Assembly (NCBI GenBank): GCA_964019135.1
Contig: OZ025248.1
Location: forward strand, 32,419,670 to 32,483,669
DNA length: 64,000 nucleotides
Source of the DNA: Arenicola marina
Taxonomy: Eukaryota; Annelida; Polychaeta; Arenicolidae
Reading direction: 5' to 3'
A model generated the notes under the pieces. It was not told where the DNA came from, did not search any database, and was given only the letters and a program-made list of their open reading frames with translations. Positions 17,301 to 50,500 of this stretch are shown in pieces; the first letter of the stretch is position 1; every line of letters begins with the position of its first letter. The position numbers were made by a program, and so were the translations under genes.

Positions 17301-20300
17301 AAGTGTCCTTTTAATGGGCTACCACTATCAGTTGCCTATGATCTTATGCTGGCCTCTCCACTGACGTTAGTTTCAGAAAAATGGCTCGGATGACCTCTCC
17401 ATAACAGTGGACAACCCATTAAAACTGATGAAGCTGGGCCGCAGCAAAGACTACGGGATTTGTAAGGCAACCACGAAGGCTGGGAAAAACTGCAACAACT
17501 TCATCAACCAGTATGTTAGCAATTGTATTCTTCTGTTCTGTCAGTTTTATATTTAGTTTACTCCACATAAACTGTGTTTATATCATAAAGCATTTGGTGT
17601 GTTATTACACACACACTCAGTTTTATTTATATTATAGATAGATAGATAGGTAACTTCAGGCACCAGGCCCCTCGTACAAATACAGAACACAAAACTAACA
17701 TGCAACCGACTAGGACAAACTTAGTTAATTAGAGAAAATTAGGCTAAACCTTTTTTTCATACATAGTGAATGCTTTTTGTCTAAACCTTGCTAAGGAGAT
17801 AAAACGTGTTTTTTCCGTGGAAGTCACACAAAAAACTCCTAATATCATATACCGTTAAATATCTTGTAGGAAAATAATTATTGCGGATATTGTCATACAA
17901 TGGGCATTTTATTAAAATATGGAACTCTGCCGCATGAACCTCTCCCGTAATTACCTAAAGGGATATACAATACATGTCAATACTTTTGTTTTACTTACTT
18001 AGAGATAAAGGAGAATACTGTACGTATCATGTACAGAATGCCTACAAAAAAGTCAGCGCCAAACGTGCCGAACTTCAAGCCGGGTAGGTCATTTGTTTTA
18101 TTCTCTTCATGGCCGAGGGCTACGATCTATGGAATTTTTACGTATCGGTGTCCGCTTTGATCCAGTAGTCCTAGTGCCGCCATGTTATTTTTACCCATTA
18201 AGTTTTTTTTAGGACGCAATTCTCGTATTACTGCGCCTGACCCCCAGTTTGCTTCATGTTGCGGTTGTGGACAGCTCACCAGACGTTACGTTACACTCGG
18301 TTTGTGTTCTCTTTTGTAGCCACACAGGTGTTGTACCGAGGAGCTTCGAGAGGAAGTTATTTAACAAAGGCAATACGGTCATGTACCAGGGACAGACCTA
18401 CACATCAATCGCGTAAGTGAAGTAACAGCCACCTGTTTGCGCAGTGTCCATGTCCAGGAGACGGGCATATTACCGGGAAGACGTAAGTGAATTGACAGCC
18501 ACCTCTGTTTGCGCAGTGTCCATGTCCAGGAGACGGGCATATTACCGGGATGACGTAAGTTAAGTAACAGCAACCTCTGTTTCCCCAATAGTCCCATGTC
18601 CAGGAGACGGGCATATTACCGGGATGACGTAAGTTAAGTAACAGCCACCTCTGTTTGCGCAGTGTCCATGTCCAGGAGACGGGCATATTACCGGGATGAC
18701 GTAAGTTTAAGTAACAGCCACCTCTGTTTGCGCAGTGTCCATGTCCAGGAGACGGGCATATTACCGGGATGACGTAAGTTAAGTAACAGCCACCTCTGTT
18801 TGCGCAGTGTCCATGTCCAGGAGACGGGCATAATACCGGGATGACGTAAGTTAAGTAACAGCCACCTCTGTTTGCGCAGTGTCCATGTCCAGGAGACGGG
18901 CATATTACCGGGATGACGTAAGTTAAGTAACAGCCACCTCTGTTTGCGCAGTGTCCATGTCCAGGAGACGGGCATATTACCGGGATGACGTAAGTTTAAG
19001 TAACAGCCACCTCTGTTTGCGCAGTGTCCATGTCCAGGAGACGGGCATATTACCGGGATGACGTAAGTTAAGTAACAGCCACCTCTGTTTGCGCAGTGTC
19101 CATGTCCAGGAGACGGGCATAATACCGGGATGACGTAAGTTAAGTAACAGCCACCTCTGTTTGCGCAGTGTCCATGTCCAGGAGACGGGCATATTACCGG
19201 GATGACGTAAGTTAAGTAACAGCCACCTCTGTTTGCGCAGTGTCCATGTCCAGGAGACGGGCATATTACCGGGATGACGTAAGTTTAAGTAACAGCCACC
19301 TCTGTTTGCGCAGTGTCCATGTCCAGGAGACGGGCATATTACCGGGATGACGTAAGTTAAGTAACAGCCACCTCTGTTTGCGCAGTGTCCATGTCCAGGA
19401 GACGGGCATAATACCGGGATGACGTAAGTTAAGTAACAGCCACCTCTGTTTGCGCAGTGTCCATGTCCAGGAGACGGGCATATTACCGGGATGACGTAAG
19501 TTAAGTAACAGCCACCTCTGTTTGCGCAGTGTCCATGTCCAGGAGACGGGCATATTACCGGGATGACGTAAGTTTAAGTAACAGCCACCTCTGTTTGCGC
19601 AGTGTCCATGTCCAGGAGACGGGCATATTACCGGGATGACGTAAGTTAAGTAACAGCCACCTCTGTTTGCGCAGTGTCCATGTCCAGGAGACGGGCATAA
19701 TACCGGGATGACGTAAGTTAAGTAACAGCCACCTCTGTTTGCGCAGTGTCCATGTCCAGGAGACGGGCATATTACCAGGATGACGTAAGTTAAGTAACAG
19801 CCACCTCTGTTTGCGCAGTATCCATGTCCAGGAGACGGGCATATTACCGGGATGACGTAAGTTAAGTAACAGCCACCTCTGTTTGCGCAGTGTCCATGTC
19901 CAGGAGACGGGCATATTACCGAGATGACGTAAGTTAAGTAACAGCCACCTCTGTTTGCGCAGTGTCCATGTCCAGGAGACGGGCATATTACCGGGATGAC
20001 GTAAGTTAAGTAATAGCCACCTCTGTTTCCCCAATAGTCCATGTCCAGGAGACGGGCATATTACCGGGATGACGTAAGTTAAGTAACAGCCACCTCTGTT
20101 TCCCCAATAGTCCATGTCCAGGAGACGGGCATATTACCGGGATGACGTAAGTTAAGTAACAGCCACTCTGTTTGCGCAGTATCCATGTCCAGGAGACGGG
20201 CATATTACCGGGATGACGTAAGTTAAGTAACAGCCACCTCTGTTTGCGCAGTGTCCATGTCCAGGAGACGGGCATATTACCGAGATGACGTAAGTTAAGT

Positions 20301-23300
20301 AACAGCCACCTCTGTTTGCGCAGTGTCCATGTCCAGGAGACGGGCATATTACCGGGATGACGTAAGTTAAGTAACAGCCACCTCTGTTTCCCCAATAGTC
20401 CATGTCCAGGAGACGGGCATAATACCGGGATGACGTAAGTTAAGTAACAGCCACCTCTGTTTGCGCAGTGTCCATGTCCAGGAGACGGGCATATTACCGG
20501 GATGACGTAAGTTAAGTAACAGCCACTCTGTTTGCGCAGTATCCATGTCCAGAAGACGGGCATATTACCGGGATGACGTAAGTTAAGTAACAGCCACCTC
20601 TGTTTCCCCAATAGTCCATGTTCAGGAGACGGGCATATTACCGGGATGACGTAAGTTAAGTAATAGCCACCTCTGTTTCCCCAATAGTCCATGTCCAGGA
20701 GACGGGCATATTACCGGGATGACGTAAGTTAAGTAACAGCCACCTCTGTTTGCGCAGTGTCCATGTCCAGGAGACGGGCATATTACCGGGATGACGTAAG
20801 TTAAGTAACAGCCACTCTGTTTGCGCAGTATCCATGTCCAGGAGACGGGCATATTACCGGGATGACGTAAGTTAAGTAACAGCCACCTCTGTTTGCGCAG
20901 TGTCCATGTCCAGGAGACGGGCATATTACCGAGATGACGTAAGTTAAGTAACAGCCACCTCTGTTTGCGCAGTGTCCATGTCCAGGAGACGGGCATATTA
21001 CCGGGATGACGTAAGTTAACTAACAGCCACCTCTGTTTCCCCAATAGTCCATGTCCAGGAGACGGGCATAATACCGGGATGACGTAAGTTAAGTAACAGC
21101 CACCTCTGTTTGCGCAGTGTCCATGTCCAGGAGACGGGCATATTACCGAGATGACGTAAGTTAAGTAACAGCCACCTCTGTTTGCGCAGTGTCCATGTCC
21201 AGGAGACGGGCATATTACCGGGATGACGTAAGTTAAGTAACAGCCACCTCTGTTTGCGCAGTGTCCATGTCCAGGAGACGGGCATATTACCGGGATGACG
21301 TAAGTTAAGTAACAGCCATCTCTGTTTGCGCAGTATCCATGTCCAGAAGACGGGCATATTACCGGGATGACGTAAGTTAAGTAACAGCCACCTCTGTTTG
21401 CGCAGTGTCCATGTCCAGGAGACGGGCATATTACCGGGATGACGTAAGTTAAGTAACAGCCACCTCTGTTTGCGCAGTGTCCATGTCCAGGAGACGGGCA
21501 TATTACCGGGATGACGTAAGTTAAGTAACAGCCACCTCTGTTTCCCCAATAGTCCATGTCCAGGAGACGGGCATATTACCGGGATGACGTAAGTTAAGTA
21601 ACAGCCACCTCTGTTTGCGCAGTGTCCATGTCCAGGAGACGGGCATATTACCGGGATGACGTAAGTTAAGTAACAGCCACCTCTGTTTGCGCAGTGTCCA
21701 TGTCCAGGAGACGGGCATAATACCGGGATGACGTAAGTTAAGTAACAGCCACCTCTGTTTGCGCAGTGTCCATGTCCAGGAGACGGGCATATTACCGGGA
21801 TGACGTAAGTTAAGTAACAGCCACCTCTGTTTGCGCAGTGTCCATGTCCAGGAGACGGGCATATTACCGGGATGACGTAAGTTTAAGTAACAGCCACCTC
21901 TGTTTGCGCAGTGTCCATGTCCAGGAGACGGGCATATTACCGGGATGACGTAAGTTAAGTAACAGCCACCTCTGTTTGCGCAGTGTCCATGTCCAGGAGA
22001 CGGGCATATTACCGGGATGACGTAAGTTAAGTAACAGCCACCTCTGTTTGCGCAGTGTCCATATCCAGGAGACGGGCATATTACCGAGATGACGTAAGTT
22101 AAGTAACAGCCACCTCTGTTTGCGCAGTGTCCATGTCCAGGAGACGGGCATATTACCGGGATGACGTAAGTTAAGTAACAGCCACCTCTGTTTGCGCAGT
22201 GTCCATGTCCAGGAGACGGGCATAATACCGGGATGACGTAAGTTAAGTAACAGCCACCTCTGTTTGCGCAGTGTCCATGTCCAGGAGACGGGCATATTAC
22301 CGGGATGACGTAAGTTAAGTAACAGCCACCTCTGTTTGCGCAGTGTCCATGTCCAGGAGACGGGCATATTACCGGGATGACGTAAGTTTAAGTAACAGCC
22401 ACCTCTGTTTGCGCAGTGTCCATGTCCAGGAGACGGACATATTACCGGGATGACGTAAGTTAAGTAACAGCCACCTCTGTTTGCGCAGTGTCCATGTCCA
22501 GGAGACGGGCATAATACCGGGATGACGTAAGTTAAGTAACAGCCACCTCTGTTTGCGCAGTGTCCATGTCCAGGAGACGGGCATATTACCGGGATGACGT
22601 AAGTTAAGTAACAGCCACCTCTGTTTGCGCGGTGTCCATGTCCAGGAGACGGGCATATTACCGGGATGACGTAAGTTTAAGTAACAGCCACCTCTGTTTG
22701 CGCAGTGTCCATGTCCAGGAGACGGGCATATTACCGGGATGACGTAAGTTAAGTAACAGCCACCTCTGTTTGCGCAGTGTCCATGTCCAGGAGACGGGCA
22801 TAATACCGGGATGACGTAAGTTAAGTAACAGCCACCTCTGTTTGCGCAGTGTCCATGTCCAGGAGACGGGCATATTACCGGGATGACGTAAGTTAAGTAA
22901 CAGCCACCTCTGTTTGCGCAGTATCCATGTCCAGGAGACGGGCATATTACCGGGATGACGTAAGTTAAGTAACAGCCACCTCTGTTTGCGCAGTGTCCAT
23001 GTCCAGGAGACGGGCATATTACCGAGATGACGTAAGTTAAGTAACAGCCACCTCTGTTTGCGCAGTGTCCATGTCCAGGAGACGGGCATATTACCGGGAT
23101 GACGTAAGTTAAGTAATAGCCACCTCTGTTTCCCCAATAGTCCATGTCCAGGAGACGGGCATATTACCGGGATGACGTAAGTTAAGTAACAGCCACCTCT
23201 GTTTCCCCAATAGTCCATGTCCAGGAGACGGGCATATTACCGGGATGACGTAAGTTAAGTAACAGCCACTCTATTTGCGCAGTATCCATGTCCAGGAGAC

Positions 23301-26300
23301 GGGCATATTACCGGGATGACGTAAGTTAAGTAACAGCCACCTCTGTTTGCGCAGTGTCCATGTCCAGGAGACGGGCATATTACCGAGATGACGTAAGTTA
23401 AGTAACAGCCACCTCTGTTTGCGCAGTGTCCATGTCCAGGAGACGGGCATATTACCGGGATGACGTAAGTTAAGTAACAGCCACCTCTGTTTCCCCAATA
23501 GTCCATGTCCAGGAGACGGGCATAATACCGGGATGACGTAAGTTAAGTAACAGCCACCTCTGTTTGCGCAGTGTCCATGTCCAGGAGACGGGCATATTAC
23601 CGGGATGACGTAAGTTAAGTAACAGCCACTCTGTTTGCGCAGTATCCATGTCCAGAAGACGGGCATATTACCGGGATGACGTAAGTTAAGTAACGGCCAC
23701 CTCTGTTTCCCCAATAGTCCATGTTCAGGAGACGGGCATATTACCGGGATGACGTAAGTTAAGTAATAGCCACCTCTGTTTCCCCAATAGTCCATGTCCA
23801 GGAGACGGGCATATTACCGGGATGACGTAAGTTAAGTAACAGCCACCTCTGTTTGCGCAGTGTCCATGTCCAGGAGACGGGCATATTACCGGGATGACGT
23901 AAGTTAAGTAACAGCCACTCTGTTTGCGCAGTATCCATGTCCAGGAGACGGGCATATTACCGGGATGACGTAAGTTAAGTAACAGCCACCTCTGTTTGCG
24001 CAGTGTCCATGTCCAGGAGACGGGCATATTACCGAGATGACGTAAGTTAAGTAACAGCCACCTCTGTTTGCGCAGTGTCCATGTCCAGGAGACGGGCATA
24101 TTACCGGGATGACGTAAGTTAAGTAACAGCCACCTCTGTTTCCCCAATAGTCCATGTCCAGGAGACGGGCATAATACCGGGATGACGTAAGTTAAGTAAC
24201 AGCCACCTCTGTTTGCGCAGTGTCCATGTCCAGGAGACGGGCATATTACCGAGATGACGTAAGTTAAGTAACAGCCACCTCTGTTTGCGCAGTCCATGTC
24301 CAGGAGACGGGCATATTACCGGGATGACGTAAGTTAAGTAACAGCCACCTCTGTTTGCGCAGTGTCCATGTCCAGGAGACGGGCATATTACCGGGATGAC
24401 GTAAGTTAAGTAACAGCCACCTCTGTTTGCGCAGTATCCATGTCCAGAAGACGGGCATATTACCGGGATGACGTAAGTTAAGTAACAGCCACCTCTGTTT
24501 GCGCAGTGTCCATGTCCAGGAGACGGGCATATTACCGGGATGACGTAAGTTAAGTAACAGCCACCTCTGTTTGCGCAGTGTCCATGTCCAGGAGACGGGC
24601 ATATTACCGGGATGACGTAAGTTAAGTAACAGCCACCTCTGTTTCCCCAATAGTCCATGTCCAGGAGACGGGCATATTACCGGGATGACGTAAGTTAAGT
24701 AACAGTCACCTCTGTTTGCGCAGTGTCCATGTCCAGGAGACGGGCATATTACCGGGATGACGTAAGTTAAGTAACAGCCACCTCTGTTTGCGCAGTGTCC
24801 ATGTCCAGGAGACGGGCATATTACCGAGATGACGTAAGTTAAGTAACAGCCACCTCTGTTTGCGCAGTGTCCATGTCCAGGAGACGGGCATATTACCGAG
24901 ATGACGTAAGTTAAGTAACAGCCACCTCTGTTTCCCCAATAGTCCATGTCCAAGAGACGGGCATATTACCGGGATGACGTAAGTTAAGTAACAGCCACCT
25001 CTGTTTCCCCAATAGTCCATGTCCAGGAGACGGGCATATTACCGGGATGACGTAAGTTAAGTAACAGCCACCTCTGTTTGCGCAGTGTCCATGTCCAGGA
25101 GACGGGCATATTACCGGGATGACGTAAGTTAAGTAACAGCCACTTCTGTTTGCGCAGTGTCCATGTCCAAGAGACGGGCATATTACCGGGATGACGTAAG
25201 TTAAGTAACAGCCACCTCTGTTTGCGCAGTGTCCATGTCCAGGAGACGGGCATATTACCGGGATGACGTAAGTTAAGTAACAGCCACGTCTGTTTGCGCA
25301 GTGTCCATGTCCAGGAGACGGGCATATTACCGGGATGACGTAAGTGAAGTAACAGCCACTCTGTTTGCGCAGTGGCCATGTCCAGGAGACGGGCATATTA
25401 CCGGGATGACGTAAGTGAAGTAACAGCCACCTCTGTTTGCGCAGTGTCCATGTCCAGGAGACGGGCATATTACCGGGATGACGTAAGTTAAGTAACAGCC
25501 ACCTCTGTTTGGGCAGTGTCCATGTCCAGAAGACGGGCATATCACCGGGATGACGTAAGTTAAGTAACAGCCACCTCTGTTTGCGCAGTGTCCATGTCCA
25601 GGAGACGGGCATATTACCGAGATGACGTAAGTTAAGTAACAGCCACCTCTGTTTGCGCAGTGTCCATGTCCAGGAGACGGGCATATTACCGGGATGACGT
25701 AAGTTAAGTAACAGCCACCTCTGTTTCCCCAATAGTCCATGTCCAGGAGACGGGCATAATACCGGGATGACGTAAGTTAAGTAACAGCCACCTCTGTTTG
25801 CGCAGTGTCCATGTCCAGGAGACGGGCATATTACCGAGATGACGTAAGTTAAGTAACAGCCACCTCTGTTTGCGCAGTCCATGTCCAGGAGACGGGCATA
25901 TTACCGGGATGACGTAAGTTAAGTAACAGCCACCTCTGTTTGCGCAGTGTCCATGTCCAGGAGACGGGCATATTACCGGGATGACGTAAGTTAAGTAACA
26001 GCCACCTCTGTTTGCGCAGTATCCATGTCCAGAAGACGGGCATATTACCGGGATGACGTAAGTTAAGTAACAGCCACCTCTGTTTGCGCAGTGTCCATGT
26101 CCAGGAGACGGGCATATTACCGGGATGACGTAAGTTAAGTAACAGCCACCTCTGTTTGCGCAGTGTCCATGTCCAGGAGACGGGCATATTACCGGGATGA
26201 CGTAAGTTAAGTAACAGCCACCTCTGTTTCCCCAATAGTCCATGTCCAGGAGACGGGCATATTACCGGGATGACGTAAGTTAAGTAACAGTCACCTCTGT

Positions 26301-29300
26301 TTGCGCAGTGTCCATGTCCAGGAGACGGGCATATTACCGGGATGACGTAAGTTAAGTAACAGCCACCTCTGTTTGCGCAGTGTCCATGTCCAGGAGACGG
26401 GCATATTACCGAGATGACGTAAGTTAAGTAACAGCCACCTCTGTTTGCGCAGTGTCCATGTCCAGGAGACGGGCATATTACCGAGATGACGTAAGTTAAG
26501 TAACAGCCACCTCTGTTTCCCCAATAGTCCATGTCCAAGAGACGGGCATATTACCGGGATGACGTAAGTTAAGTAACAGCCACCTCTGTTTCCCCAATAG
26601 TCCATGTCCAGGAGACGGGCATATTACCGGGATGACGTAAGTTAAGTAACAGCCACCTCTGTTTGCGCAGTGTCCATGTCCAGGAGACGGGCATATTACC
26701 GGGATGACGTAAGTTAAGTAACAGCCACTTCTGTTTGCGCAGTGTCCATGTCCAAGAGACGGGCATATTACCGGGATGACGTAAGTTAAGTAACAGCCAC
26801 CTCTGTTTGCGCAGTGTCCATGTCCAGGAGACGGGCATATTACCGGGATGACGTAAGTTAAGTAACAGCCACGTCTGTTTGCGCAGTGTCCATGTCCAGG
26901 AGACGGGCATATTACCGGGATGACGTAAGTGAAGTAACAGCCACTCTGTTTGCGCAGTGGCCATGTCCAGGAGACGGGCATATTACCGGGATGACGTAAG
27001 TGAAGTAACAGCCACCTCTGTTTGCGCAGTGTCCATGTCCAGGAGACGGGCATATTACCGGGATGACGTAAGTTAAGTAACAGCCACCTCTGTTTGGGCA
27101 GTGTCCATGTCCAGAAGACGGGCATATCACCGGGATGACGTAAGTGAAGTAACAGCCACCTCTGTTTGCGCAGTGTCCATGTCCAGGAGACGGGCATATT
27201 ACCGGGATGACGTAAGTTAAGTAACAGCCACCTCTGTTTGCGCAGTGTCCATGTCCAGGAGACGGGCATATTACCGGGATGACGTAAGTTAAGTAACAGC
27301 CACCTCTGTTTCCCCAATAGTCCATGTCCAGGAGACGGGCATATTACCGGGATGACGTAAGTTAAGTAACAGCCACCTCTGTTTGCGCAGTGTCCATGTC
27401 CAGGAGACGGGCATATAACCGGGAAGACTTTCGATAAACGTAACCTGGAGAAGCATTTACAGCACACATTTGTAAGAAGAAAAAAATCGAGACGAATTAT
27501 CATAAACAAATGGGGAAAAAAAGCATTATACATTAAGAAGCAAAACAAAATAATGAACGAAGTTTTAGGTAACATTTGCGGGGATGGTTGTTTAATCCAG
27601 AGATGAAAAAGCCGTAACATCTGTTTGATGGCAAGGAGACACTGACATGTATGTGCATGACTCACAGTACATGTATAACACATGTATATCCCAGTACTCC
27701 AGAGACACTCCCCGTGATAATGATAATTGTTACCTCTTCGACCCGAGGTTTTATCACGACATATCAAAACATAAGAGTATTGTTCTTGCCCCGCCCCGCC
27801 TCCCTCCCCACCCACTGGCTCCTCCTCCTCCGCCTTGTCTTTTTTCATTCACCCGATACCAAACGTGGTTTATTCTCGACAAGCATGACTAGCTGGTTGA
27901 TAGGGACGGGTAGGGTCACGCAGAAAGAGAGCTGTATGCTTGTTTTGTGATGCTGCGATAAAATCGTTGTAGTTAAGTGTCAAGACAAACCTGACATGCA
28001 GGAATACGAGTACGAGTAAGAGTAGTAGGATTTGCGCTTTAAGCGAGAAGTATTGTTTTGTCTTTTCGTTTACTTTTAAATTTGCATACGTTCAAATACT
28101 GTAGCAAAATATTTACCGTTGCTACATAATTATTTTGCTCAACCGAAAAGTGTTTTCATTTGTGACGCAGGAAGCGAATATAGATAGATGTTCCACCTAC
28201 AGCTGACGTGTTTCTTACACGGCGATATACTTATCAATTGTTGTTTTGTTCTGGCTTACCAATGGGGTTACGATGTTCTTCCACGAATAAAAGCCGTAAA
28301 ACCTTTGTAAGGTTTATGTAAATTGTATATTTCTCCAAGGCCGCCGCTATATTCTGCGCAACTGAACGCCCCGTCTTTGCCACTTTCATGTTAGCTTCAT
28401 CTCGAACTAGGCGTTATGTTATTTGTAACTTTTAAATCAGTGTCCCCCCCCCCCCTCTTTGACGTTTGCAGGCAGAATGCAAAGCCGAAGAGTACGGTGT
28501 CCCTGAAGGGTCTGCAGACTCACACCCTACATCAGCCAGGCCTGAAGAACAAGATCACAACACTCGCCTTGCATGACCTCATTCCCGACGACAAGGAGAA
28601 GCTGGAGAAGCTAAAGCGGGACAAACACGAAGCCTTGTAAGCCATTAACCATTGCGTCACTCACTTGGAGGTTAAATCGTTGTTTTAGGTCGCCTAATCT
28701 TCGGAATTTCGTCCACTCATCCTTCATCGTCATGGGGGCTCTAGTGCCAGCGACCATCAGGTCTTAACTAGAATCCCAACCATGTGACTGAATCTGGTGT
28801 TCCTTCTTTTCTTTATGCCACTTGTTATGTCTTATGTATTCACTTGGTTAAATAAGCGATTATTGGCTTTACTTGACTTTGGAGGGAAGGGGGGGGGGGT
28901 TCCTTGGTCTAGTGTAGCCCTTGTGTGTACAAAAAGCGGCGTAAAACATCAATTCATTTTATGTCCAGATTTGAGACGCCGACCTTGATCTATAGGTGAC
29001 AACGTGTGAATGACTGTCAAGGTCGTGTCGGTTTTTCGTGTATTGTATGATTTTCGTGTGTTTCAGTCACGGTCTGCTGACGGTTCCTACAGTCGGGTCC
29101 CTGAACTTCGTGAAACACCTGAAACATAAAGAGTTCGATCCTGAAAGTAAGAAACCTTTTTTTTTTTCATAATTGATTGGACTAAATATATTTAAATGGA
29201 TGACATTTTCATCGAATTGTCTCCAAATTTAACCATTAGATTTATTTTCACCTGATTAAAAATCCGGCAATTCACGTTATTTTTTGTGCTGGTCATTGCG

Positions 29301-32300
29301 TCAGTATTGTAAAATATGTACTTGTTGTATAAATGTATTGACTAACAATGGAACCTGCTATTAGGACCAGATACGGCACAGAGCAGAAGTGTAGCGGTCA
29401 TATCCGTGTGGTCAGGATTACGGGACTCTTTAACTAATGCTAGTTCGTTCTTCTTCTCTTGCAATTCGTTATTGAACTTTGACATATCAAACATATTACA
29501 GTACCAGGTGGTATACATATTGCCCATATATATAATTTATATCGTTGTCCGCTCCGATAAAAACACGTCTTCAAATCATTATATTGCACCTGACAAAGAA
29601 CTCAAAGTTTGGCTAATTTAACCTATTTTCTAAATATGGAATGCACAACAATATTTGATATAAGGTTGTTACTGTAACCATCAAATCTAAAACTATAGGT
29701 TTTCACGATATATTTACCCTAAACGACTGCGATATATATAACGATATCTGTTTTACCCTACAGAGTGAGATAAAATGGGTTCTATAGATTGTATGTATTT
29801 GCATGACAAGCAATAAATAGTGGTGTTGGATTAGTCTCACTGAGTAATTCGTTCGCTTTGATCGCAGAAGATCCCGGGGATGAGAAAGAGGCCCCCAAGG
29901 TGCAGTCGGTGTCCATCAGTCAGTTCATGAAGCAGGCCAGGCAGGAGATGGCGGCCAAGAGACAGCAGCACCAGGCTGGGCGGGGGGAGCCTGGGGTCTG
30001 CCCGTCCCCCTCGGCCACGGCGACACCCTCCCCGGGGCCCTCTCCGGCGAGGGGCGGTCTGCCGAGGCTCGGCAGGGGATTCGGCCCCGGCATGGATATA
30101 GACTTGTCGGTTGCCGCGGCACCCTCAGCTCCGGCTGAACGCCGTAGTAAACAGAGCAAGGTGTGTTCTGGGAACTAATCAAGTTTTGTTATGGAAACTA
30201 ATAAAGCTTTGCTCTGTGAACTGACAGAGTAAATCATTTCAAATGAACAATGTAGGAAAATGAAAGTTCCGCCCAACCTACAACCATTATCCAAACTCCT
30301 GTTATTTGCTGTTATATATCTTGGCCACAATTTTGAAATACCACAAATTTCCATTTACGATTTCCTGTAGAAAAGAAACTTGGAAAGTGACGAAGCTAAT
30401 AACCTTTCCCGCATCATCTGCTGCTGCTGCTGTTTCTTCCCTCTCTGTACTGTGTGGACATGTCGTTTGGTCTAACAACTTGACGAGATTTGTTCTTTCT
30501 ACTCTGTAGCAAAAAGCCATTGCCAAAATCAGAGCTGGGGGCGGCATTAAGAAGGAGAGTCCTAATGCCGTGAAGAAGCCTCGCTCCCCGGAACACCAGG
30601 AGCGGGTACAGAAGCGAGTCGCCGCCGCCATGGAAGGTAACGACCGACGCTCTGCCGTCCGTACCACGGGGGCCGCCTCGATAGCTCAGTGGGTTAGAGT
30701 GGTTCGAGCCCTGCTGTGGCCATGTCTTTGTGGTCGCAGGATAATGATCTCATGACCTCCTTCGCAAAGAGTAGGGGTCACACCGGGAACATGGCGCCGC
30801 TCTGCCCTTCCTTCTCCCATTGGCGCGATTGGACCAAAAGTGGATAAAACGTCCTGAATATACAACCAATCTACCGTATTTCACTATGTTTTCGGACACT
30901 ATAAGTGTTCGGACACCCCTTCAAAGCCAGGAAAAACCCTCAAGCGTGCGTATATTGTCGGACAATATCAGGCCTAAAATAACACTCCAAGGCTCCTTCC
31001 TTATTGCTTAGCGCTGTTCGTCATGAGTGCACGTCAGTGCTTGTGATTGCGGAGACCAGGGAGACGGGAAAGTCACTCTATTAGGGGGTTATTCAAGCCG
31101 TCAGTGCTTGTGATTGCGGAGACCAGGGAGACGGGAAAGTCACTGTATTAGGGGGTCATTCAAGCCGTCAGTGCTTGTGATTGCGGAGACCAAGGAGACG
31201 GGGAAGTCACTGTATTAGGGGGTTATTCGAGCCGTCAGTGCTTGTGATTGCAGAGACCAGGGAGACGGGGAAATCACTGTATTAGGGGGTTATTCGAGCC
31301 GTCAGTGCTTGTGATTGCGGAGACCAGGGGGACGGGGAAGTCACTGTATTAGGGGGTTATTCGAGCCGTCAGTGCTTGTGATTGCAGAGACCAGGGAGAC
31401 GGGGAAATCACTGTATTAGGGGGTTATTCGAGCCGTCAGTGCTTGTGATTGCGGAGACCAGGGGGACGGGGAAATCACGGTATTAGGGGGTTATTCGAGC
31501 CGTCAGTGCTTGTGATTGCAGGGACCAAGGAGACGGGGCAGTCACTGTATTAGGGGGTTATTCGAGCCGTCAGTGCTTGTGATTGCGGAGACAAGGGAGA
31601 CGGGGAAATCACTGTATTAGGGGGTTATTCGAGCCGTCAGTGCTTGTGATTGCGGAGACAAGTGAGACGGGGAAGTCACTGTATTAGGGGGTTATTCGAG
31701 CCGTCAGTGCTTGTGATTGCAGAGACCAGGGAGACGGGGAAATCACTGTATTAGGGGGTTATTCGAGCCGTCAGTGCTTGTGATTGCAGAGACCAAGGAG
31801 ACGGGAAAGTCACTGTATCAGGGGGTTATTTGAGCCGTCAGTGCTTGTGATTGCAGAGACCAGGGAGACAGGGAAATCACTGTATTAGGGGGTTATTCGA
31901 GCCGTCAGTGCTTGTGATTGCAGAGACCAAGGAGACGGGGAAGTCACTGTATTAGGGGGTTATTCGAGCCGTCAGTGCTTGTGATTGAAGAGACCAGGGA
32001 GACGGGGAAATCACTGTATTAGGGGGTTATTCGAGCCGTCAGTGCTTGTGATTGCGGAGACAAGTGAGACGGGGAAATCACTGTATTAGGGGGTTATTCA
32101 AGCCGTCAGTGCTTGTGATTGCGGAGACAAGTGAGACGGGGAAGTCACTGTATTATGGGGTTATTCGAGCCGTCAGTGCTTGTGATTGCGGAGACAAGTG
32201 AGACGGGGAAGTCACTGTATTAGGGGGTTATTCGAGCCGTCAGTGCTTGTGATTGCAGAGACCAGGGAGACGGGGAAATCACTGTATTAGGGGGTTATTC

Positions 32301-35300
32301 GAGCCGTCAGTGCTTGTGATTGCAGAGACCAAGGAGACGGGGAAGTCACTGTATTAGGGGGTTATTCGAGCCGTCAGTGCTTGTGATTGCGGAGACAATG
32401 GAGACGGGGAAATCACTGTATTAGGGGGTTATTCAAGCCGTCAGTGCTTGTGATTGCAGAGACCAGGGAGACGGGGAAATCACTGTATTATGGGGTTATT
32501 CGAGCCGTCAGTGCTTGTGATTGCGGAGACAAGTGAGACGGGGAAGTCACTGTATTAGGGGGTTATTCGAGCCGTCAGTGCTTGTGATTGCAGAGACCAA
32601 GGAGACGGGGAAGTCACTGTATTAGGGGGTTATTCAAGCCGTCAGTGCTTGTGATTGCGGAGACAAGTGAGACGGGGAAGTCACTGTATTAGGGGGTTAT
32701 TCAAGCCGTCAGTGCTTGTGATTGCGGAGACAAGTGAGACGGGGAAATCACTGTATTAGGGGGTTATTCGAGCCGTCAGTGCTTGTGATTGCAGAGACCA
32801 AGGAGACGGGGAAGTCACTGTATTAGGGGGTTATTCAAGCCGTCAGTGCTTGTGATTGCGGAGACAAGTGAGACGGGGAAGTCACTGTATTAGGGGGTTA
32901 TTCAAGCCGTCAGTGCTTGTGATTGCGGAGACAAGTGAGACGGGGAAATCACTGTATTAGGGGGTTATTCGAGCCGTCAGTGCTTGTGATTGCAGAGACC
33001 AGAGAAACGGGGAAGTCACTGTATTAGGGGGTTATTCAAGCCGTCAGTGCTTGTGATTGCAGAGACCAGGGAGACGGGGAAATCACTGTATTAGGGGGTT
33101 ATTCGAGCCGTCAGTGCTTGTGATTGCAGAGACCAGAGAAACGGGGAAGTCACTGTATTAGGGGGTTATTCAAGCCGTCAGTGCTTGTGATTGCGGAGAC
33201 AATGGAGACGGGGAAATCACTGTATTATGGGGTTATTCGAGCCGTCAGTGCTTGTGATTGCGGAGACAAGGGAGACGGGGAAATCACTGTATTAGGGGGT
33301 TATTCAAGCCGTCAGTGCTTGTGATTGCGGAGACAAGGGAGACGGGGAAGTCACTGTATTAGGGGGTTATTCGAGCCGTCTTTCAGGTGTGAAAGAGCAA
33401 CGCCTTGGTTACTACGTAACGAGCTGCACATTGGTCGACATTGTGCTGGCCGGCAGATTAGTCAATCGGCGGATTAGTTGTTTATAAACCGCGAGAGTAA
33501 ACTAACCTTAAATCACGGATGAGTCAGCCAGCAGATGAGTTGTTTATAAACCGCGAAGCTAAACATACATTAAATCACGAATGAGTCTGGTTTTTCTTAC
33601 TGTAGTTTAGTTGTTAGAAGTTACCGTTTTACTTTAACAATGATTGCAATTCATAAATACTGCTTGCCTTAAGTCATATCTTTGTTAACACTATACTTAT
33701 CTTGTCCTTTATCTAAATACGCGAAGACTGTCACGACTTGTCGCGACTATATTCGAAACAGAATTATACTCTTAATCACCTTACTCGCTGTAAAGGTGTG
33801 AAACAGCCTTAATCGATTATTTTTTTTATGTATGTAAGCTTTCGGAACGTAGATGGGGATGTTTTTACTGTAAATATTCGGACAGTGGAGCCTACCGGTG
33901 ATTTTGTTACTGGATCATGGCTATAGTGTTCATTTTGTATAATGAGCGGTTTGATCAAAAGCCGTATTATTATTATTAGTGTTTGAGCCCACAGTAGTTT
34001 ATTGACGGTTAAGGCGGTCAAATTGTTGGTAATTTATTGATACAAACTATAATTGTTCTTCAAAATCCAGAAGGGGATGAGAATGACGAAGGGAACAGAT
34101 CTTCGGCAGATAAAAGTCAGCCGCCCAAGAAAAAATCGAGAATGATCGGCAACCTCGACATGGATTCACCGGAAGTACAGAAGTTACTGAAGGCTCGGTC
34201 CAAGCATGACGGGGCGTTGACCGAGGTAAAAACATTTTTTGTTTATGTGATTACATCATATTATAATTATTACTTGGTAATGTAACCATTTTTGCTTTCG
34301 GTACAACCTAAAATACACTTTGTTAGAGACTGGACGCCTGGCCTGTGTTGCTATAGAAATGTCTTATGGTTGGGAGTTAAAATACCGCTCTTGAAAAGTT
34401 TTTGTTTTGATTTGTTTCAATGAACTTTACAACATATTGCATCGTGTGAACAGGGCATTATGGAATACACTTGTTTCCTTGCCTTCAGATGGAGCAGGAG
34501 AAACAAGACTTGTACTTCGATACGCTAGAGAAGAAGGAACAGATGGAGGACAAGATGCGAAGTACGACGGAGGTCAAGTGTAAAGCAGTCACGTGCAGAC
34601 AGGTCAGTATCCCCAACGTCCTCACTAATTACAACGGTATGTTTATTGTACAAAAAAGCCTCCGGCCTAGAGTACATACAGACAGTATAAATATTCCCCT
34701 GAGCCCCTTTCCTTCCCCGAACCCAAAACTTTGCACTAAATTACTCTTAACTATAGAAATATGTCGCAAATTATTTGTGTTGGTAATTGCTTCTTTCAAG
34801 TCATTGCGGGGCGAGACAGGTGTCGCTGGAGATGTCCCTGTTATTGACATAATAATAGCTTACCACGAAGTGGCGACGACTGAAACAGTCATGGAATCGG
34901 TTTAACGCATTGTTTCATGTGTGCTTCCATGTCCAGCCAAGACACCTACACGATATTATTGCTGCGGAGGTTTTTGTGTTATTATACTTATTTCCATTCA
35001 CAGAGCCGTCGCGTTGTAAAATTTTATGGACTGAATTTAGGGCGACACCTGCACTGGCAGTTCTACGGTACTCCGGCGGCCGGCCTGCCGGGGCTGCCTG
35101 TAACTACACGCCGCGTTATCACACAACGACGGTTCTACGGTACTCCGGCGGCCGTCCTGCCGGGGCTGCCTGTAACTACACGCCGCGTTATCACACAACG
35201 ACGGTTCTACGGTACTCCGGCGGCCGTCCTGCCGGGGCTGCCTGTAACTACACGCCGCGTTATCACACAACGACGGTTCTACGGTACTCCGGCGGCCGTC

Positions 35301-38300
35301 CTGCCGGGGCTGCCTGTAACTACACGCCGCGTTATCACACAACGACGGTTCTACGGTACTCCGGCGGCCGGCCTGCCGGGGCTGCCTGTAACTACACGCC
35401 GCGTTATCACACAACGACGGTTCTACGGTACTCCGGCGGCCGTCCTGCCGGGGCTGCCTGTAACTACACGCCGCGTTATCACACAACGACGGTTCTACGG
35501 TACTCCGGCGGCCGTCCTGCCGGGGCTGCCTGTAACTACACACCGCATTATCACACAACGACGGTTCTACGGTACTCCGGCGGCCGTCCTGCCGGGGCTG
35601 CCTGTAACTACACGCCGCGTTATCACACAACGACGGTTCTACGGTACTCCGGCGGCCGTCCTGCCGGGGCTGCCTGTAACTACACGCCGCATTATCACGC
35701 AACGGCGGTTCTACGTTACGTCGGGGCCTGTAACTATAGACCACATTATCACGCAATAGCGGTTCTACGATGGGGCCTTTTTTTGTTTTTCAGTGCAACT
35801 ACACTGCCCTGTCGGCCGCCCAGAGGTGCCGCGATGAGCGACACAAGCTGACCACCCACGATGCCGTCAAGCGCTTCTTCAAGTGCAAGGACTGCAGTCA
35901 TCGGACTGTCTCCCTGCACGTTATTCCCGTCATGGCCTGCAAGTAAGTCGCACCTGATGTTTATTTCGTGTTCTTTGACGCCACTTTAAGGCACATTAAG
36001 GCTACACTGGGCCGCCCGGGGCCATAAGAGGGGGTTGGGTGAAACCCACCCCAGATACAGGTGCCAAAGCGCGAACCCATGAAAACGGTGCATCTACATG
36101 TACACTGTATATGTACAGGTACACTGTATATGTACACTGTATATGTACATGTACACCTACAGTGTACATGTACACCCACAGTGTGTACCTGTACATATAC
36201 AGTATACATGTACACTGTAATGTACATGTACATATACAGTGTACATGTATACTGTATGTGTACATGTACATTGTATATGTACAGGTACACTGTATGTGTA
36301 CACTGTATATGTACATATACAGTTTACATGTACATATACAGTGTACATATACAGTGTATATGTGCAATGTAGATATTCATGTACATTACAAGTTAGGGGT
36401 CTGTCTCTAAAGTACGGACAATTAGTCAAAATATTCCTTGCAAGAAACATCCACGAATTTGAAGAAAAACTAATAGGAAGGTTCATTGTGAACAATTCAC
36501 TTAATATTCAAGTGAGGTTTAGTCGGTTGGGGTCTCTTCCTTGGAACACCTTCCTACGTCTTTATTCATCCTAGGATTTATGTTATTGATTTCATTATTT
36601 GTGGATGTTAAAATGAACGTTGCTTATCTGTTGTATGCTGCATTTGATTATCTTCTTCTGTGTCAGATTGTAATTATGCAATTTACTTATATTTCAGAAA
36701 TTGCGGGGGGTCCAGCTACGAAAGGACTTCCATGCTGAAGGTAAGCACATGGTTGACTCTGGTTATGGCCGGGGTGGTTTGTGCCATGGTTTCTGATTCT
36801 CACATCGAAAATGAAAAAAAAAACGCTAAAGCAAAAATAGAAATGAGACATAGACAGACAGGATGCAATTACCCGTTTTTCTGAGTAAATGTTTGCTCTT
36901 AAGACGGAAGCTGGGCTTACATTACATTTAGGCTTGCAGAAGCCGGATGTGAAAGGGCTGGAGGAGGGTGGTTGGGGGGGGGGATTAACTTTCGTTAGTT
37001 AAAACTAGCGGTAGCCCTGCAAGGTGATTTGGACGATGATTAACGGGTAATTACTGTTAATGCTGAGAGCATCATATTCTACTTTGTATAAGAGTACACC
37101 CTCGAGATAGCCGAGCGAAGGGCAGGTATCTCCAATCAACGTGTAGGGTTGGTCGGTGTATGGGTTGGCCTCAGTCCGTCTCTATTATAGTATTTATGGT
37201 GCTAGCTTAATCAGAGAGCGCGCCCGCGAGAGAGAGAGAGAGGGAGTGGATGAGAAACAGGGACAAAGAGAGCGAGAGACAGGGACAAAGACGGTGAGAG
37301 ACAGGGACAAAGACGGTGAGAGACCGGGCCAAAGACGGTGAGAGACAGGGCCAAAGACGGTGTGAGACAGGGACAAAGATGGTGAGAGACAGGGACAAAG
37401 ACGGTGAGAGGCAGGGACAAAGACAGTGAGAGACAGGGACAAAGATGGTGAGAGACAGGGACAAAGACGGTGAGAGACAGGGACAAAGACGGTGTGAGAC
37501 AGGGACAAAGATGGTGAGAGACAGGGACAAAGATGGTGAGAGACAGGGACAAAGACGGTGAGAGGCGGGGACAAAGACGGTGGGAGGCAGGGACAAAGAC
37601 GGTGCGAGACAGGGACAAAGAGGGTGAGAGACAGGGACAAAGAGAGCGAGAGACAGGGACAAAGACGGTGAGAGACAGGGACAAAGACGGTGAGAGGCAG
37701 GGACAAAGACGGTGCGAGACAGGGACAAAGAGGGTGAGAGACAGGGACAAAGACGGTGAGAGACAGGGACAAAGACGGTGAGAGACAGGGCCAAAGACGG
37801 TGTGAGACAGGGACAAAGATGGTGAGAGACAGGGACAAAGACGGTGAGAGGCAGGGACAAAGACGGTGCGAGACAGGGCCAAAGACGGTGTGAGACAGGG
37901 ACAAAGATGGTGAGAGACAGGGACAAAGACGGTGAGAGACAGGGCCAAAGACGGTGCGAGACAGGGCCAAAGACGGTGTGAGACAGGGACAAAGATGGTG
38001 AGAGACAGGGACAAAGACGGTGAGAGGCAGGGACAAAGACGGTGTGAGACAGGGACAAAGGTAACGGCTCTGTCGGCAGAAGGAGAGCGCGGTGGGGCGG
38101 GGGGAGGGGGGATAAACAAAGGGACAAAGGTTCTGGGAAAACCTCCAACAGAGCGAATCTGCCCGCCAGGACTAAGGCTCAGAGGGTGCCTTGCAAGTCC
38201 AGACACTGACAACCAGTGTATGCTAGGATTTATCCATCCTTGCTGCTGTCAGGTGGCTGTTGGCGTGTAATTGAAAGTGTTCGTACCACAATTTAGTCTT

Positions 38301-44027: not shown

Positions 44028-44769
44028 TTTTAAAGTCCTGATATGTGCGAATAATATCTGTATGGGCAGCTTTGAGCATTTCTATTATCTTCTATTATGA
44101 TGAAGATTAATAAAGTAGACGAATTTTGGTTTGATATGTTAATCAAGAAATATATTTTTAATGAGATAATTGATAATACGGCAAAACGCCTACCAATGGG
44201 GTAATACGTGGAATTTAGACAAAAAGAAAAATTTTTGGATGATTCAAGTACTAATTCTTTTATGTATTTTGACCTCTTTAGTTCTGGCGGGAATGAGCTC
44301 AATAAGCAACTTTAACTTGTCTATCGTCAATGGAACCGACACACCCAACCCCGTTCAACCCCCCCCCCCCCACCCCCACGGCCCCACCTCCCTCTTCCTC
44401 ATTGGCACCGACTGGTTCAGATGTCACTTATCAATGTAGTAGATGTCTAGCCCGCTACGTAATTATGACATAGATACTCGACAAGCTTGGTTTGATGAAT
44501 TTGACGTCACCCTAAGATATCTTTGGCCAGTCCGACGTCATGTCTCTGTTTGACGCCGTCCGTACATAATTGGCTTTGTTATCTCCTGGCCGACGTAGCC
44601 ACCTCAGCCGTCCCCGAGACCTGATTGAACCGGAACAATTAGCTTGGTGTATCGTCAGGTCCTCTGGCGTCAAACGCCTCATCAGCCACCGTGTTTGTGG
44701 AGGTGATTGGCGGGTTAAGGTAAGGAGATCCAATAAGAGAGGCTGTTAACGGACACCGCTGCGCCACCT

Positions 44770-47490
44770 GCCGCCACCCCATGGACCTGCTTACACAACA
44801 TGTCAGACACTAGATCCGCGCTACCTCCCGCCACCCCATGGACCTGCTTACACAACATGTCAGACACTAGATCCGCGCTACCTCCCGCCACCCCATGGAC
44901 CTGCTTACACAACATGTCAGACACTAGATCCGCGCTACCTCCCGCCACCCCATGGACCTGCTTACACAACATGTCAGACACTAGATCCGCGCTACCTCCC
45001 GCCACCCCATGGACCTGCTTACACAACATGTCAGACACTAGATCCGCGCTACCTCCCGCCACCCCATGGACCTGCTTACACAACATGTCAGACACTAGAT
45101 CCGCGCTACCTCCCGCCACCCCATGGACCTGCTTACACAACATGTCAGACACTAGATCCGCGCTACCTCCCGCCACCCCATGGACCTGCTTACACAACAT
45201 GTCAGACACTAGATCCGCGCTACCTCCCGCCACCCCATGGACCTGCTTACACAACATGTCAGACACTAGATCCGCGCTACCTCCCGCCACCCCATGGACC
45301 TGCTTACACAACATGTCAGACACTAGATCCGCGCTACCTCCCGCCACCCCATGGACCTACTTACACAACATGTCGGACACTAGATCCGCGCTACCTCCTG
45401 CCACCCCATGTACCTGCTTACACAACATGTCAGACACTAGATCCGCGCTACCTCCCGCCACCCCATGGACCTGCTTACACAACATGTCAGACACTAGATC
45501 CGCGCTACCTCCCGCCACCCCATGCACCTGCTTACACAACATGTCAGACACTAGATCCGCGCTACCTCCCGCCACCCCATGCACCTGCTTACACAACATG
45601 TCAGACACTAGATCCGCGCTAACTCCCGCCACCCCATGGACCTGCTTACACAACATGTCAGACACTAGATCCGCGCTACCTCCCGCCACCCCATGGACCT
45701 GCTTACACAACATGTCGGACACTAGATCCGCGCTACCTCCTGCCACCCCATGTACCTGCTTACACAACATGTCAGACACTAGATCCGCGCTACCTCCCGC
45801 CACCCCATGGACCTGCTTACACAACATGTCAGACACTAGATCCGCGCTACCTCCCGCCACCCTATGCACCTGCTTACACAACATGTCAGACCGCGCTACC
45901 TCCCGCCACCCCATGGACCTGCTTACACAACATGTCAGACACTAGATTCGCGCTACCTCCCGCCACCCCATGGACCTGCTTACACAACATGTCAGACACT
46001 AGATTCGCGCTACCTCCCGCCACCCCATGGACCTGCTTACACAACATGTCAGACACTAGATCCGCGCTACCTCCCGCCACCCCATGGACCTGCTTACACA
46101 ACATGTCAGACACTAGACCCGCGCTACCTCCCGCCACCCCATGGACCTGCTTACACAACATGTCAGACACTAGACCCGCGCTACCTCCCGCCACCCCATG
46201 GACCTGCTTACACAACATGTCAGAAACTAGATCCGCGCTACCTCCCGCCACCCCATGGACCTGCTTTCACAACATGTCAGACACTAGATCCGCGCTACCT
46301 CCCGCCACCCCATGGACCTGCTTACACAACATGTCAGACACTAGACCCGCGCTACCTCCCGCCACCCCATGGACCTGCTTACACAACATGTCAGACACTA
46401 GACCCGCGCTACCTCCCGCCACCCCATGGACCTGCTTACACAACATGTCAGACACTAGATCCGCGCTACCTCCCGCCACCCCATGCACCTGCTTACACAA
46501 CATGTCAGACACTAGATCCGCGCTACCTCCCGCCACCCCATGGACCTGCTTACACAACATGTCAGACACTAGATCCGCGCTACCTCCCGCCACCTCATGG
46601 ACCTGCTTACACAACATGTCAGACACTAGATCCGCGCTACCTCCCGCCACCCCATGGACCTGCTTACACAACATGTCAGACACTAGATCCGCGCTACCTC
46701 CCGCCACCCCATGCACCTGCTTACACAACATGTCAGACAATAGATCCGCGCCACCTGCCGCCACCCCATGGACCTGCTTACACAACATGTCAGACACTAG
46801 ATCCGCGCTACCTCCCGCCACCCCATGCACCTGCTTACACAACATGTCAGACACTAGATCCGCGCTACCTCCCGCCACCCCATGCACCTGCTTACACAAC
46901 ATGTCAGACACTAGATCCGCGCTACCTCCCGCCACCCCATGGACCTGCTTACACAACATGTCAGACACTAGATCCGCGCTACCTCCCGCCACCCCATAGA
47001 CCTGCTTACACAACATGTCAGACACTAGATCCGCGCAACCTCCCGCCACCCCATGGACCTGCTTACACAACATGTCAGACACTAGATCCGCGCCACCTGC
47101 CGCCACCCCATGGACCTGCTTACACAACATGTCAGACACTAGATCCGCGCCACCTCCCGCCACCCCATGGACCTGCTTACACAACATGTCAGACACTAGA
47201 TCCGCGCTACCTCCCGCCACCCCATAGACCTGCTTACACAACATGTCAGACACTAGATCCGCGCTACCTCCCGCCACCCCATGGACCTGCTTACACAACA
47301 TGTCAGACACTAGATCCGCGCTACCTCCCGCCACCCCATAGACCTGCTTACACAACATGTCAGACACTAGATCCGCGCAACCTCCCGCCACCCCATGGAC
47401 CTGCTTACACAACATGTCAGACACTAGATCCGCCCAACCTCCCGCCACCCCATGGACCTGCTTACACAACATGTCAGACACAAGCTCCGC
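44770..47490 (+). repeat. 57-bp minisatellite, about 48 copies, intergenic
   Basis: Unit contains ATGTCAGACACTAGATCCGC, GCTACCTCCCGCCACCCC and ATGGACCTGCTTACACAAC. 57 is divisible by three, so frames stay open for up to 568 codons on the plus and 411 on the minus strand. The repetitive peptide (MSDTRSALPPATPWTCLHN) lacks any domain, a promoter or a splice context. The units at the left end are nearly identical and the middle is more mixed, suggesting polar recent growth. Confidence 0.97.
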
Positions 47491-47619
47491 GCTACCGCAC
47501 AATCGGTCGATATGTGGGGTATTTGCCCCTCGCCGTTATCACCGGTAATGACATGTTAGATGTTGAATAGTTATTTGAATACCACCAGTAATGATTCTGT
47601 TATTTGACTACATATATTG

Positions 47620-48485: not shown

Positions 48486-49055
48486 CATTAAAGTATTCAG
48501 TGTGCTGTTTCGTAACAATATATGTATCAGTCTCCATTTTGTGAATTATGCGATTTACATTCTCCCGATAGAGGTCGTTTTTCACTCACACTGAACGATA
48601 TGTGAGTTATACTGAGCCAATGGCCTGCGTTAACATTAGAAGAGGGGGACTGGGGAGGAGGCCCCCATGCACTTATTGCGAAGAAAAATGACTCGAGCTT
48701 TGGGTCTACCCCGCTCATCAGTTGGTGGAACAACATTTTTTTATTTCCGAAATACAGCTGATGAAACATGTATGATCTATATATAATTCATTTCCGAGTT
48801 TAATTATTATATTTTAAAAGAAAATCTGATATATTTTGCAATGGTGTTCTCAGGAGGAGAGGTGGGGTAGCGAGCCCCCCCCCCCCCCGCCCCCCCAGCC
48901 ACCGCTAAACAACTGTGAAAATCAAGATCATTGCGAAAGATACAATGGAAATTATAACGAAAAAGTGACGGTTCACTTTTTCGTTACTACAATCCCACCC
49001 CCACCCCCCTCATATTCGATCCCCCCCCCATCTACACTTGCGGTGTACTGGGTGT
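48486..49055. other. Gap between the foldback element and the 41-bp array
   Basis: Contains C-runs at 48878-48896 and around 49021-49028 and nothing coding. A minus-strand AATAAA (plus-strand TTTATT at 48740-48745) could serve the GPCR transcript if its 3' UTR crosses the 41-bp array (inference). Confidence 0.4.
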
Positions 49056-49059
49056 AACA

Positions 49060-50500
49060 GCTGATCATCATGTCGTGGTCACGGTGTACTGGGTCTTACA
49101 GCTGGTCATTATGTCGTGGTCACGGTGTACTGTGTATTACAGCTGGTCATTATGTCGTGGTCACGGTGTACTGTGTGTTACAGCTGGTCATCATGTCGTG
49201 GTCACGGTGTACTGGGTGTTACAGCTGGTCAGTGTGTCATGGTCACGGTGTACTGTGTATTACAGCTGGTCATTGTGTCATGGTCACGGTGTACTGGGTT
49301 TTACAGCTGGTCATCATGTCGTGGTCACGGTGTACTGTGTATTACAGCTGGTCATTGTGTCGTGGTCACGGTGTACTGGGTCTTACAGCTGGTCATTATG
49401 TCGTGGTCACGGTGTACTGTGTATTACAGCTGGTCATTGTGTCGTGGTCACGGTGTACTGTGTATTACAGCTGGTCATTGTGTCATGGTCACGGTGTACT
49501 GTGTATTACAGCTGGTCATTGTGTCGTGGTCACGGTGTACTGGGTCTTACAGCTGGTCATTGTGTCGTGGTCACGGTGTACTGGGTCTTACAGCTGGTCA
49601 TCGTGTCATGGTCACGGTGTACTGTGTATTACAGCTGGTCATTGTGTCGTGGTCACGGTGTACTGGGTCTTACAGCTGGTCATTGTGTCATGGTCACGCT
49701 GTACTGGGTGTTACAGCTGGTCATTATGTCGTGGTCACGGCGTACTGGGTGTTACAGCTGGTCATTGTGTCGTGGTCACGGTGTACTGGGTGTTACAGCT
49801 GGTCATTGTGTCATGGTCACGCTGTACTGGGTCTTACAGCTGGTCATTATGTCGCGGTCACGGTGTACTAGGTGTTACAGCTGGTCATTATGTCGTGGTC
49901 ACGGTGTACTAGGTCTTACAGCTGGTCATTGTGTCATGGTCACGGTGTACTGGGTGTTACAGCTGGTCATTATGTCATGGTCACGGTGTACTGGGTGTTA
50001 CAGCTGGTCATTATGTCGTGGTCACGGTGTACTGGGTGTTACAGCTGGTCATTATGTCGTGGTCACGGTGTACTGGGTGTTACAGCTGGTCATCATGTCG
50101 TGGTCACGGTGTACTGGGTGTTACAGCTGGTCATTATGTCGTGGTCACGGTGTACTGGGTGTTACAGCTGGTCATTATGTCGTGGTCACGGTGTACTGGG
50201 TGTTACAGCTGGTCATTATGTCGTGGTCACGGTGTACTGGGTGTTACAACTGGTCATTATGTCGTGGTCACGGTGTACTGGGTGTCACAGCTGGTCATTA
50301 TGTCGTGGTCACGGTGTACTGGGTGTCACAGCTGGTCATTATGTCGTGGTCACGGTGTACTGGGTCTTACAGCTGGTCATCATGTTGTGGTCACGGTGTA
50401 CTGGGTCTTACAGCTGGTCATTATGTCGTGGTCACGGTGTACTGGGTCTTACAGCTGGTCATCATGTCGTGGTCACGGCGTACTGGTTCTTACAGCTAGT
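49060..50500 (+). repeat. 41-bp minisatellite, about 35 copies, abutting the GPCR stop codon
   Basis: Unit is ATGTCGTGGTCACGGTGTAC, TGGGTGTTACAGCTGGTCAT plus T, with TCATGG, TGTGTATTAC and TGGGTCTTAC variants. Read on the minus strand the unit encodes TSCNTQYTVTTT and then a stop, close to the GPCR C terminus TSCKNQYAVTTT. The three plus frames are open for up to 474 codons, as 41 is not a multiple of three and the unit lacks plus-strand stops. Confidence 0.97.

Follow-up and report, generated by a model that had tools for sequence, protein, structure and literature searches.

A 125-unit minisatellite beginning at an MCM10 splice donor in the annelid Arenicola marina

How does an intron come to repeat its own splice donor more than a hundred times, and what becomes of the gene that carries it? 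The question is raised by a stretch of 64,000 nucleotides (nt) from Arenicola marina (GCA_964019135.1, contig OZ025248.1, positions 32,419,670 to 32,483,669 of the forward strand), the window of this analysis, in which a minisatellite starts at the donor of an exon of the DNA-replication gene MCM10. Positions below are those of the window. The array appears to be a very long boundary minisatellite of a known kind, and apparently the first in annelids within the open-licence literature searched. With confidence that is only a little better than even, we lean towards reading it as an intronic minisatellite much like the mirages of amphioxus, one that was founded by duplication of the start of the intron and is carried as tolerated bulk. 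Amphioxus mirages are tandem repeats at exon–intron boundaries with units of 10–160 base pairs (bp), many of them containing AG/GT signals, and are described in Adh3, in the globin genes BflGb6 and BflGb9 and in troponin C, with similar repeats in PGBD5 (PMC3087553; PMC3902484). According to the sections of these reports on which we draw, mirage clusters evolve in concert, with the cluster boundaries excluded, and leave splicing undisturbed (PMC3087553; PMC3902484).

The array and its place in MCM10

The host gene of the array is MCM10. The family searches missed it despite its presence in the window; the identification rests on a partial protein obtained by joining its translated exons, for which four Pfam families of MCM10 and MCM10 structures (best E 4.3e-50) were recovered, with a further match of its C-terminal part to the solved MCM10 zinc motif 2kwq. 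A run of ten consecutive exons between 18003 and 36740, each flanked by AG upstream and GT downstream, can be joined in one stop-free frame. The exon upstream of the array lies at 18320–18412 on the plus strand (exon 11 in the preliminary description of this locus), reads ...HTGVVPRSFERKLFNKGNTVMYQGQTYTSIA and, judged by its edges and open frame, ends in phase 2; reading through from it into the intron meets an immediate stop (GCG TAA). The next exon, at 28472–28636 on the same strand, joins it in phase (A|QNAKPKSTVSLKGLQT...). A zinc-finger-like reading just after the array, GKTFDKRNLEKHLQHTF, is not taken to be a missed exon, both because the frame of the upstream exon hits a stop in it, as checked by hand, and because the exons on either side are already in phase with each other when it is left out.

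Between the two exons Tandem Repeats Finder (TRF) reports a plus-strand minisatellite at 18412–27428 with a period of 72, 125.0 copies and 96% matches. When this array is split at CGTAAG it yields 125 units of 70–74 bp (84 of 72 bp, 29 of 73, 8 of 71, 3 of 70 and one of 74), among which there are 32 distinct sequences, the commonest present in 42 copies. The consensus unit of 72 bp consists of GTAAGT, 28 bases ending in CAG and 38 bases ending in GAC, after which the next GTAAGT follows. The left edge of the array is the last base of the exon together with the first base of the donor (CGC|GTAAGT), and the real 5' splice site, at 18413–18418 on the plus strand, is also part of the first unit. 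Counted from that donor, the array contains a whole number of copies and its right end falls after the exon-like half of the unit, with the last unit (27356–27428, plus strand) ending in GGGAAGAC. In all, the array occupies 9,016 nt of an intron of 10,059 nt. The 1,043 nt that are left after it (27429–28471, plus strand) contain no GTAAGT and end in the real acceptor, TTTGCAG. A search of the genome with the unit, in which only the best candidates were scored, gave 34 scored matches, all of them within the array, and the locus is single copy in the one assembly examined.

The preliminary description had placed the start of the array at the exon donor, had counted about 125 copies and had divided the unit into a donor, some 34 nt ending in AG and a part that it called exon-like; the start, the count and this layout all hold, with an exact left edge at donor 18413 and a last part that is mostly 38 nt long. 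It had also called the array giant, and here the 9-kb length is real while its size is exceptional only in relative terms. We sampled 25 pieces of 10 kb at round coordinates (L010–L034, 250 kb; G+C of 50% in the first 20) and counted as minisatellites arrays with a unit of at least 15 bp, at least 3 copies and a TRF score of at least 150. Such arrays make up 40% of the sampled bases, from 0 in L031 to 9,997 in L013, and in two of the 25 pieces (L013 and L020) a single array takes up more than 90% of the sequence. Against this background an array of 9 kb is unremarkable in size.

The order of the unit variants suggests how the array may have grown. An exact block of 22 units occurs twice at 23969–27138 on the plus strand, as units 78–99 (23969–25553) and again, in the same order, as units 100–121 (25554–27138), and units 4–14 recur as units 8–18, a step of four units. 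Repeats of this kind are what unequal exchange or blockwise slippage typically leaves behind, and one of these processes, acting on 4 to 22 units at a time, would have expanded and homogenised the array. The 22-unit copy may represent a recent large duplication or possibly an error of assembly. Were the latter true, the array would be real and its copy count inflated or collapsed; we think this rather improbable, given that 32 distinct unit sequences provide an assembler with landmarks and that the contigs are long (C1 spans 77 Mb). The units at both edges are less homogenised than those in the middle: the distance from the commonest unit is 4, 3 and 6 in the first three units and 4 and 3 in the last two, against a mean of 1.5 in the middle, and GGGAAGA occurs only in units 1 and 125 of the 125.

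Decoy splice sites and candidate pseudo-exons

All 125 units contain GTAAGT and, since the first of these is the real donor, there are 124 decoy donors and not the 125 that had originally been counted. The acceptor place holds an AG in 124 units, as GCGCAG in 100, CAATAG in 22 and GGGCAG in 2; the one unit with GCGCGG is the only departure from the 125 acceptors of the preliminary description. Donor and acceptor place are separated by 34 nt in 87 units, by 37 in 22, by 33 in 8, by 35 in 7 and by 32 in one. The candidate pseudo-exons that begin there measure 38 nt in 100 units (the unit lacking AG included), 36 nt in 23, 37 nt in one and 39 nt in one. The expectation that a 38-nt pseudo-exon shifts the frame is borne out for most of the array, in that splicing after the exon would bring an in-frame stop with 100 of the 125 pseudo-exons (99 that are 38 nt long, and the single 39-mer); it does not extend to the 23 pseudo-exons of 36 nt, which keep the frame and contain no stop. 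Nearly all of these shorter pseudo-exons belong to the type-B units, those with CAATAG, of which 21 yield a frame-preserving 36-mer and one yields 37 nt. Two type-B units at 20000–20145 on the plus strand serve as an example, their acceptor end being CCCCAATAG in place of GCGCAGTG.

A donor-to-acceptor spacing of 32–37 nt is below what animal spliceosomes usually handle. Because of this short geometry within each unit, together with pseudo-exons of only 36–39 nt and the reports of undisturbed splicing in amphioxus, the decoys would be expected to be mostly silent, and the first donor, which stands beside its proper exon, would pair with the real acceptor 10 kb downstream. The array is most likely tolerated bulk and not a regulator.

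The opposite role, in which inclusion of pseudo-exons adds stops and cuts MCM10 output to an extent tuned by copy number, had been raised in the preliminary description and would be compatible with any origin of the array. The stops carried by 100 of the 125 pseudo-exons and the retention of GTAAGT in every unit and of AG in all but one count in favour of such a throttle, but the 23 36-mers keep the frame free of stops, many columns of the unit beyond the splice motifs are likewise invariant, and the available sections of the amphioxus reports describe mirages with undisturbed splicing (PMC3087553; PMC3902484). We regard a throttle as highly improbable, and the present analysis, which is one of sequence, lends no support to control of MCM10 by the array.

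Origin of the repeat unit

The founding event that we favour would have been a tandem duplication in which the donor and the intron sequence after it, approximately 72 nt in all, were copied. A whole copy number in donor phase, with GGGAAGA confined to the two end units, fits such a duplication better than it fits a duplication of exon tail plus intron.

The preliminary description had proposed the latter, with the array seeded from the 3' end of the exon and the exon-like part of the unit resembling the last ~36 nt of the exon, up to the donor. Local alignment of the exon tail with the 38 nt of the consensus unit gives a score of 20, a value that 1.1% and 1.3% of mononucleotide shuffles and 6.5% and 6.9% of dinucleotide shuffles also attain (two runs of each). 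The same score or better is found in 99 of 8800 control windows, in 9 of 1355 coding windows and in 106 of 10366 genome windows, and an alignment of the consensus anchored at the donor is equalled by 3.7% of shuffles and by 141 of 6491 windows. These marginal values point to no reliable homology in the register first given, with a contribution of the exon in some other form possible; seeding from the exon end as proposed is not established, at a consensus P of 0.01–0.07 and with about 1–2% of control windows doing as well. The alignment of unit and exon tail has another side, however. Among the 13 exon tails of the gene, the tail beside the array scores highest (20 against at most 18, in a comparison where 4 of the 12 other donor positions are off by 1–2 nt), and individual units at the two edges score higher than the marginal consensus, in a register that is not stable from one comparison to the other.

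Coding sequence does enter two other arrays in the window, both of which clearly overlap coding edges. The first, with a 72-bp unit, lies within MCM10 at 35060–35793 on the plus strand, and its degenerate last units reach the acceptor of the exon at 35794. Its unit contains TGTAACTACAC where the exon begins TGCAACTACAC, a difference of one mismatch, and no site with at most one mismatch was found among 45,124 plus-strand positions outside arrays; over a longer stretch, an anchored alignment gives a shuffle P of 0.009. Neither the pyrimidine tract nor the AG in front of the exon is present in the units of this array. The second array, with a 41-bp unit, lies at 49041–50501 on the minus strand, and its first copy consists of the last 12 codons and the stop of a gene for a rhodopsin-type G protein-coupled receptor. 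The gene end matches the unit at 37 of 41 bases, and none of 5000 mononucleotide shuffles did as well.

Several observations weigh against a duplicated intron start with silent decoys. Though weak and without a stable register, the resemblance between unit and exon is strongest for the edge units: the first scores 22 and the last 24 (mononucleotide P of 0.006 and 0.002, dinucleotide P of 0.025 and 0.011), and these scores are equalled by 10 of 1355 coding and 33 of 10366 genome windows for the first unit and by none of 1355 coding and 13 of 10366 genome windows for the last. The best alignments of the two units agree with one another in register, differ from the register of the preliminary description and end 15 nt before the donor. 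A duplication of the intron start gives no account of why it should have begun exactly at the donor, and the coding sequence in the two arrays just described raises the prior for involvement of the exon. Predicted RNA structure that might hide the decoys is not seen in the fold either: with a z-score of +1.98 the predicted fold is less structured than shuffles, and six donors in one folded stretch are unpaired at 0.51–0.65 against an average of 0.41, so that the decoy donors are not obviously buried. (A scan of the window with Rfam found no known RNA at the gathering score.) The shared second register of both edge units led us to lower our confidence in the intron-start origin to its present, barely favourable level and to raise that in an exon origin, which we nevertheless judge unlikely.

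Under that exon origin the array would be a mirage in the strict sense, its unit made up of a copy of the exon end, in the original or some other register, followed by the donor and some 34 nt from the intron, and the real exon tail would be the edge copy held by selection. CATGT-CCAGG-GAC does align between exon tail and unit at nearly equal distance from the donor, but in the consensus as a whole the likeness is equalled by 3.7–6.9% of dinucleotide shuffles and 1–2% of control windows. The higher scores and common register of the first and last units would also follow from such an origin, although their better alignments depart from the register first described and leave the 15 nt next to the donor uncovered. 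The rank of the array-side tail among the 13, the coding sequence in the two other arrays and the amphioxus precedents all favour it further, whereas simple tandem copying of the exon tail and the adjoining intron does not predict whole copies in donor phase that end after the exon-like half.

The exact left edge could also have been made by a deletion in an older intronic array that joined the exon to the GTAAGT of one unit, which thereafter served as the donor. Because only joins at a donor would survive, capture of this kind would account for the edge with no need of exon homology, and every unit does offer a full donor. The phase of the right end would then be expected to be random, and the whole phase observed would be a coincidence of roughly 4% by our estimate; we consider donor capture improbable, and retain duplication of the intron start as the reading that we lean towards.

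Other minisatellites and related systems

It is conceivable that, in this annelid, minisatellites frequently originate where coding exons begin or end, whether at a donor, an acceptor or a stop codon, with such edges nucleating arrays and introns filling with copies of their own splice sites. We hold this generalisation to be doubtful. In a chaperonin gene on C18, matched at seven exons within a 9.8-kb piece, none of the exon edges adjoins an array, which counts against the idea; its introns contain a 379-bp repeat in 2.6 copies and a 22-bp repeat in 4.1 copies. Enrichment of donor motifs in minisatellite units is suggestive at most: GTRAGT is present on either strand in 6 of 73 arrays overall, where mononucleotide shuffles predict 2.6, and in 5 of the 60 arrays outside the window, where they predict 1.9; the maximum in 500 shuffles was 9 and 6, respectively.

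Further arrays lie in the window. A later MCM10 intron contains one with a 67-bp unit and 35 copies, at 31032–33380, which lies away from the exon edges. An 83-bp repeat of 3.3 copies at 42582–42853 on the minus strand carries a donor-like AAGGTGAGC on that strand; no exon for this site was found by eye, and the adjoining open frame of 211 amino acids has no Pfam match. The 57-bp unit of a 48-copy array at 44761–47496 is a multiple of three, and the array is open over long stretches on both strands. In the genome sample, the same 30-bp consensus unit recurs, on one strand or the other, in three distant pieces, at L010 4144–4308, L024 4741–4846 and L027 8991–9096, in contrast to the locus-specific arrays.

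The minisatellite of human IFI6 (6-16) is said, in work of 1995 by Turri et al., to supply several splice donor sites. Two of its repeat units are used as donors and give rise to three mRNA species, as stated in another paper (PMC4526556). The case shows that repeats of this sort can serve as donors. The MCM10 array resembles that of IFI6 in being a minisatellite at an exon end with donor sites in its units, here in all 125; the two differ in that unit donors are used in mRNA in IFI6 while the MCM10 decoys are candidate donors.

Mitochondrial genes, recognised by eye in translations, follow one another on one strand in the order nad3-nad2-cox1-cox2-atp8-cox3-nad6-cob-atp6-nad5, which we take to be the annelid order and to exclude lancelets, tunicates and echinoderms; AGA stands at a conserved serine of COX1 and AAA at a conserved lysine. 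This gene order points to an annelid host, unlike the lancelet hosts of mirages, and amphioxus, which the mirage literature had suggested as the host, is rejected on it. A search with the Pfam GFP family found no match, which says little given that family searches also missed MCM10, and a fluorescent protein of lancelet origin, run with no positive control, likewise found none. Like mirages, the MCM10 array touches an exon–intron boundary, has AG/GT signals in its units and is less homogenised at its edges. Unlike them, it reaches 125 units where haplotypes of BflGb6 have 6 and 3 in the sections consulted (PMC3087553; PMC3902484), and the exonic half of its unit is only a candidate (consensus P of 0.01–0.07; edge units 0.002–0.025, in the other register).

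Annelids offer a parallel in earthworms, whose metallothionein genes carry large minisatellites in intron 1, for which a start at a splice site is not described in the accessible part of the report (PMC12783039), and no title on boundary minisatellites in annelids was found in the open-licence literature searched. The Rogers model, in which introns are gained by duplication of a sequence containing AG/GT (PMC3087553, in the part available), likewise involves a duplication that copies splice signals; the MCM10 array differs in filling an intron, with no gain of one seen.

If the MCM10 intron is spliced correctly, it would provide a natural test of how one donor is chosen among 125 identical ones in a row, and a test as well of how small exons and introns can be. 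Should the decoys be in use, a DNA-replication gene would come under the influence of copy number, and if exon edges do nucleate arrays, splicing must withstand more than 100 equal donors in one intron. The array also suggests that minisatellites at exon–intron boundaries are found beyond lancelets.

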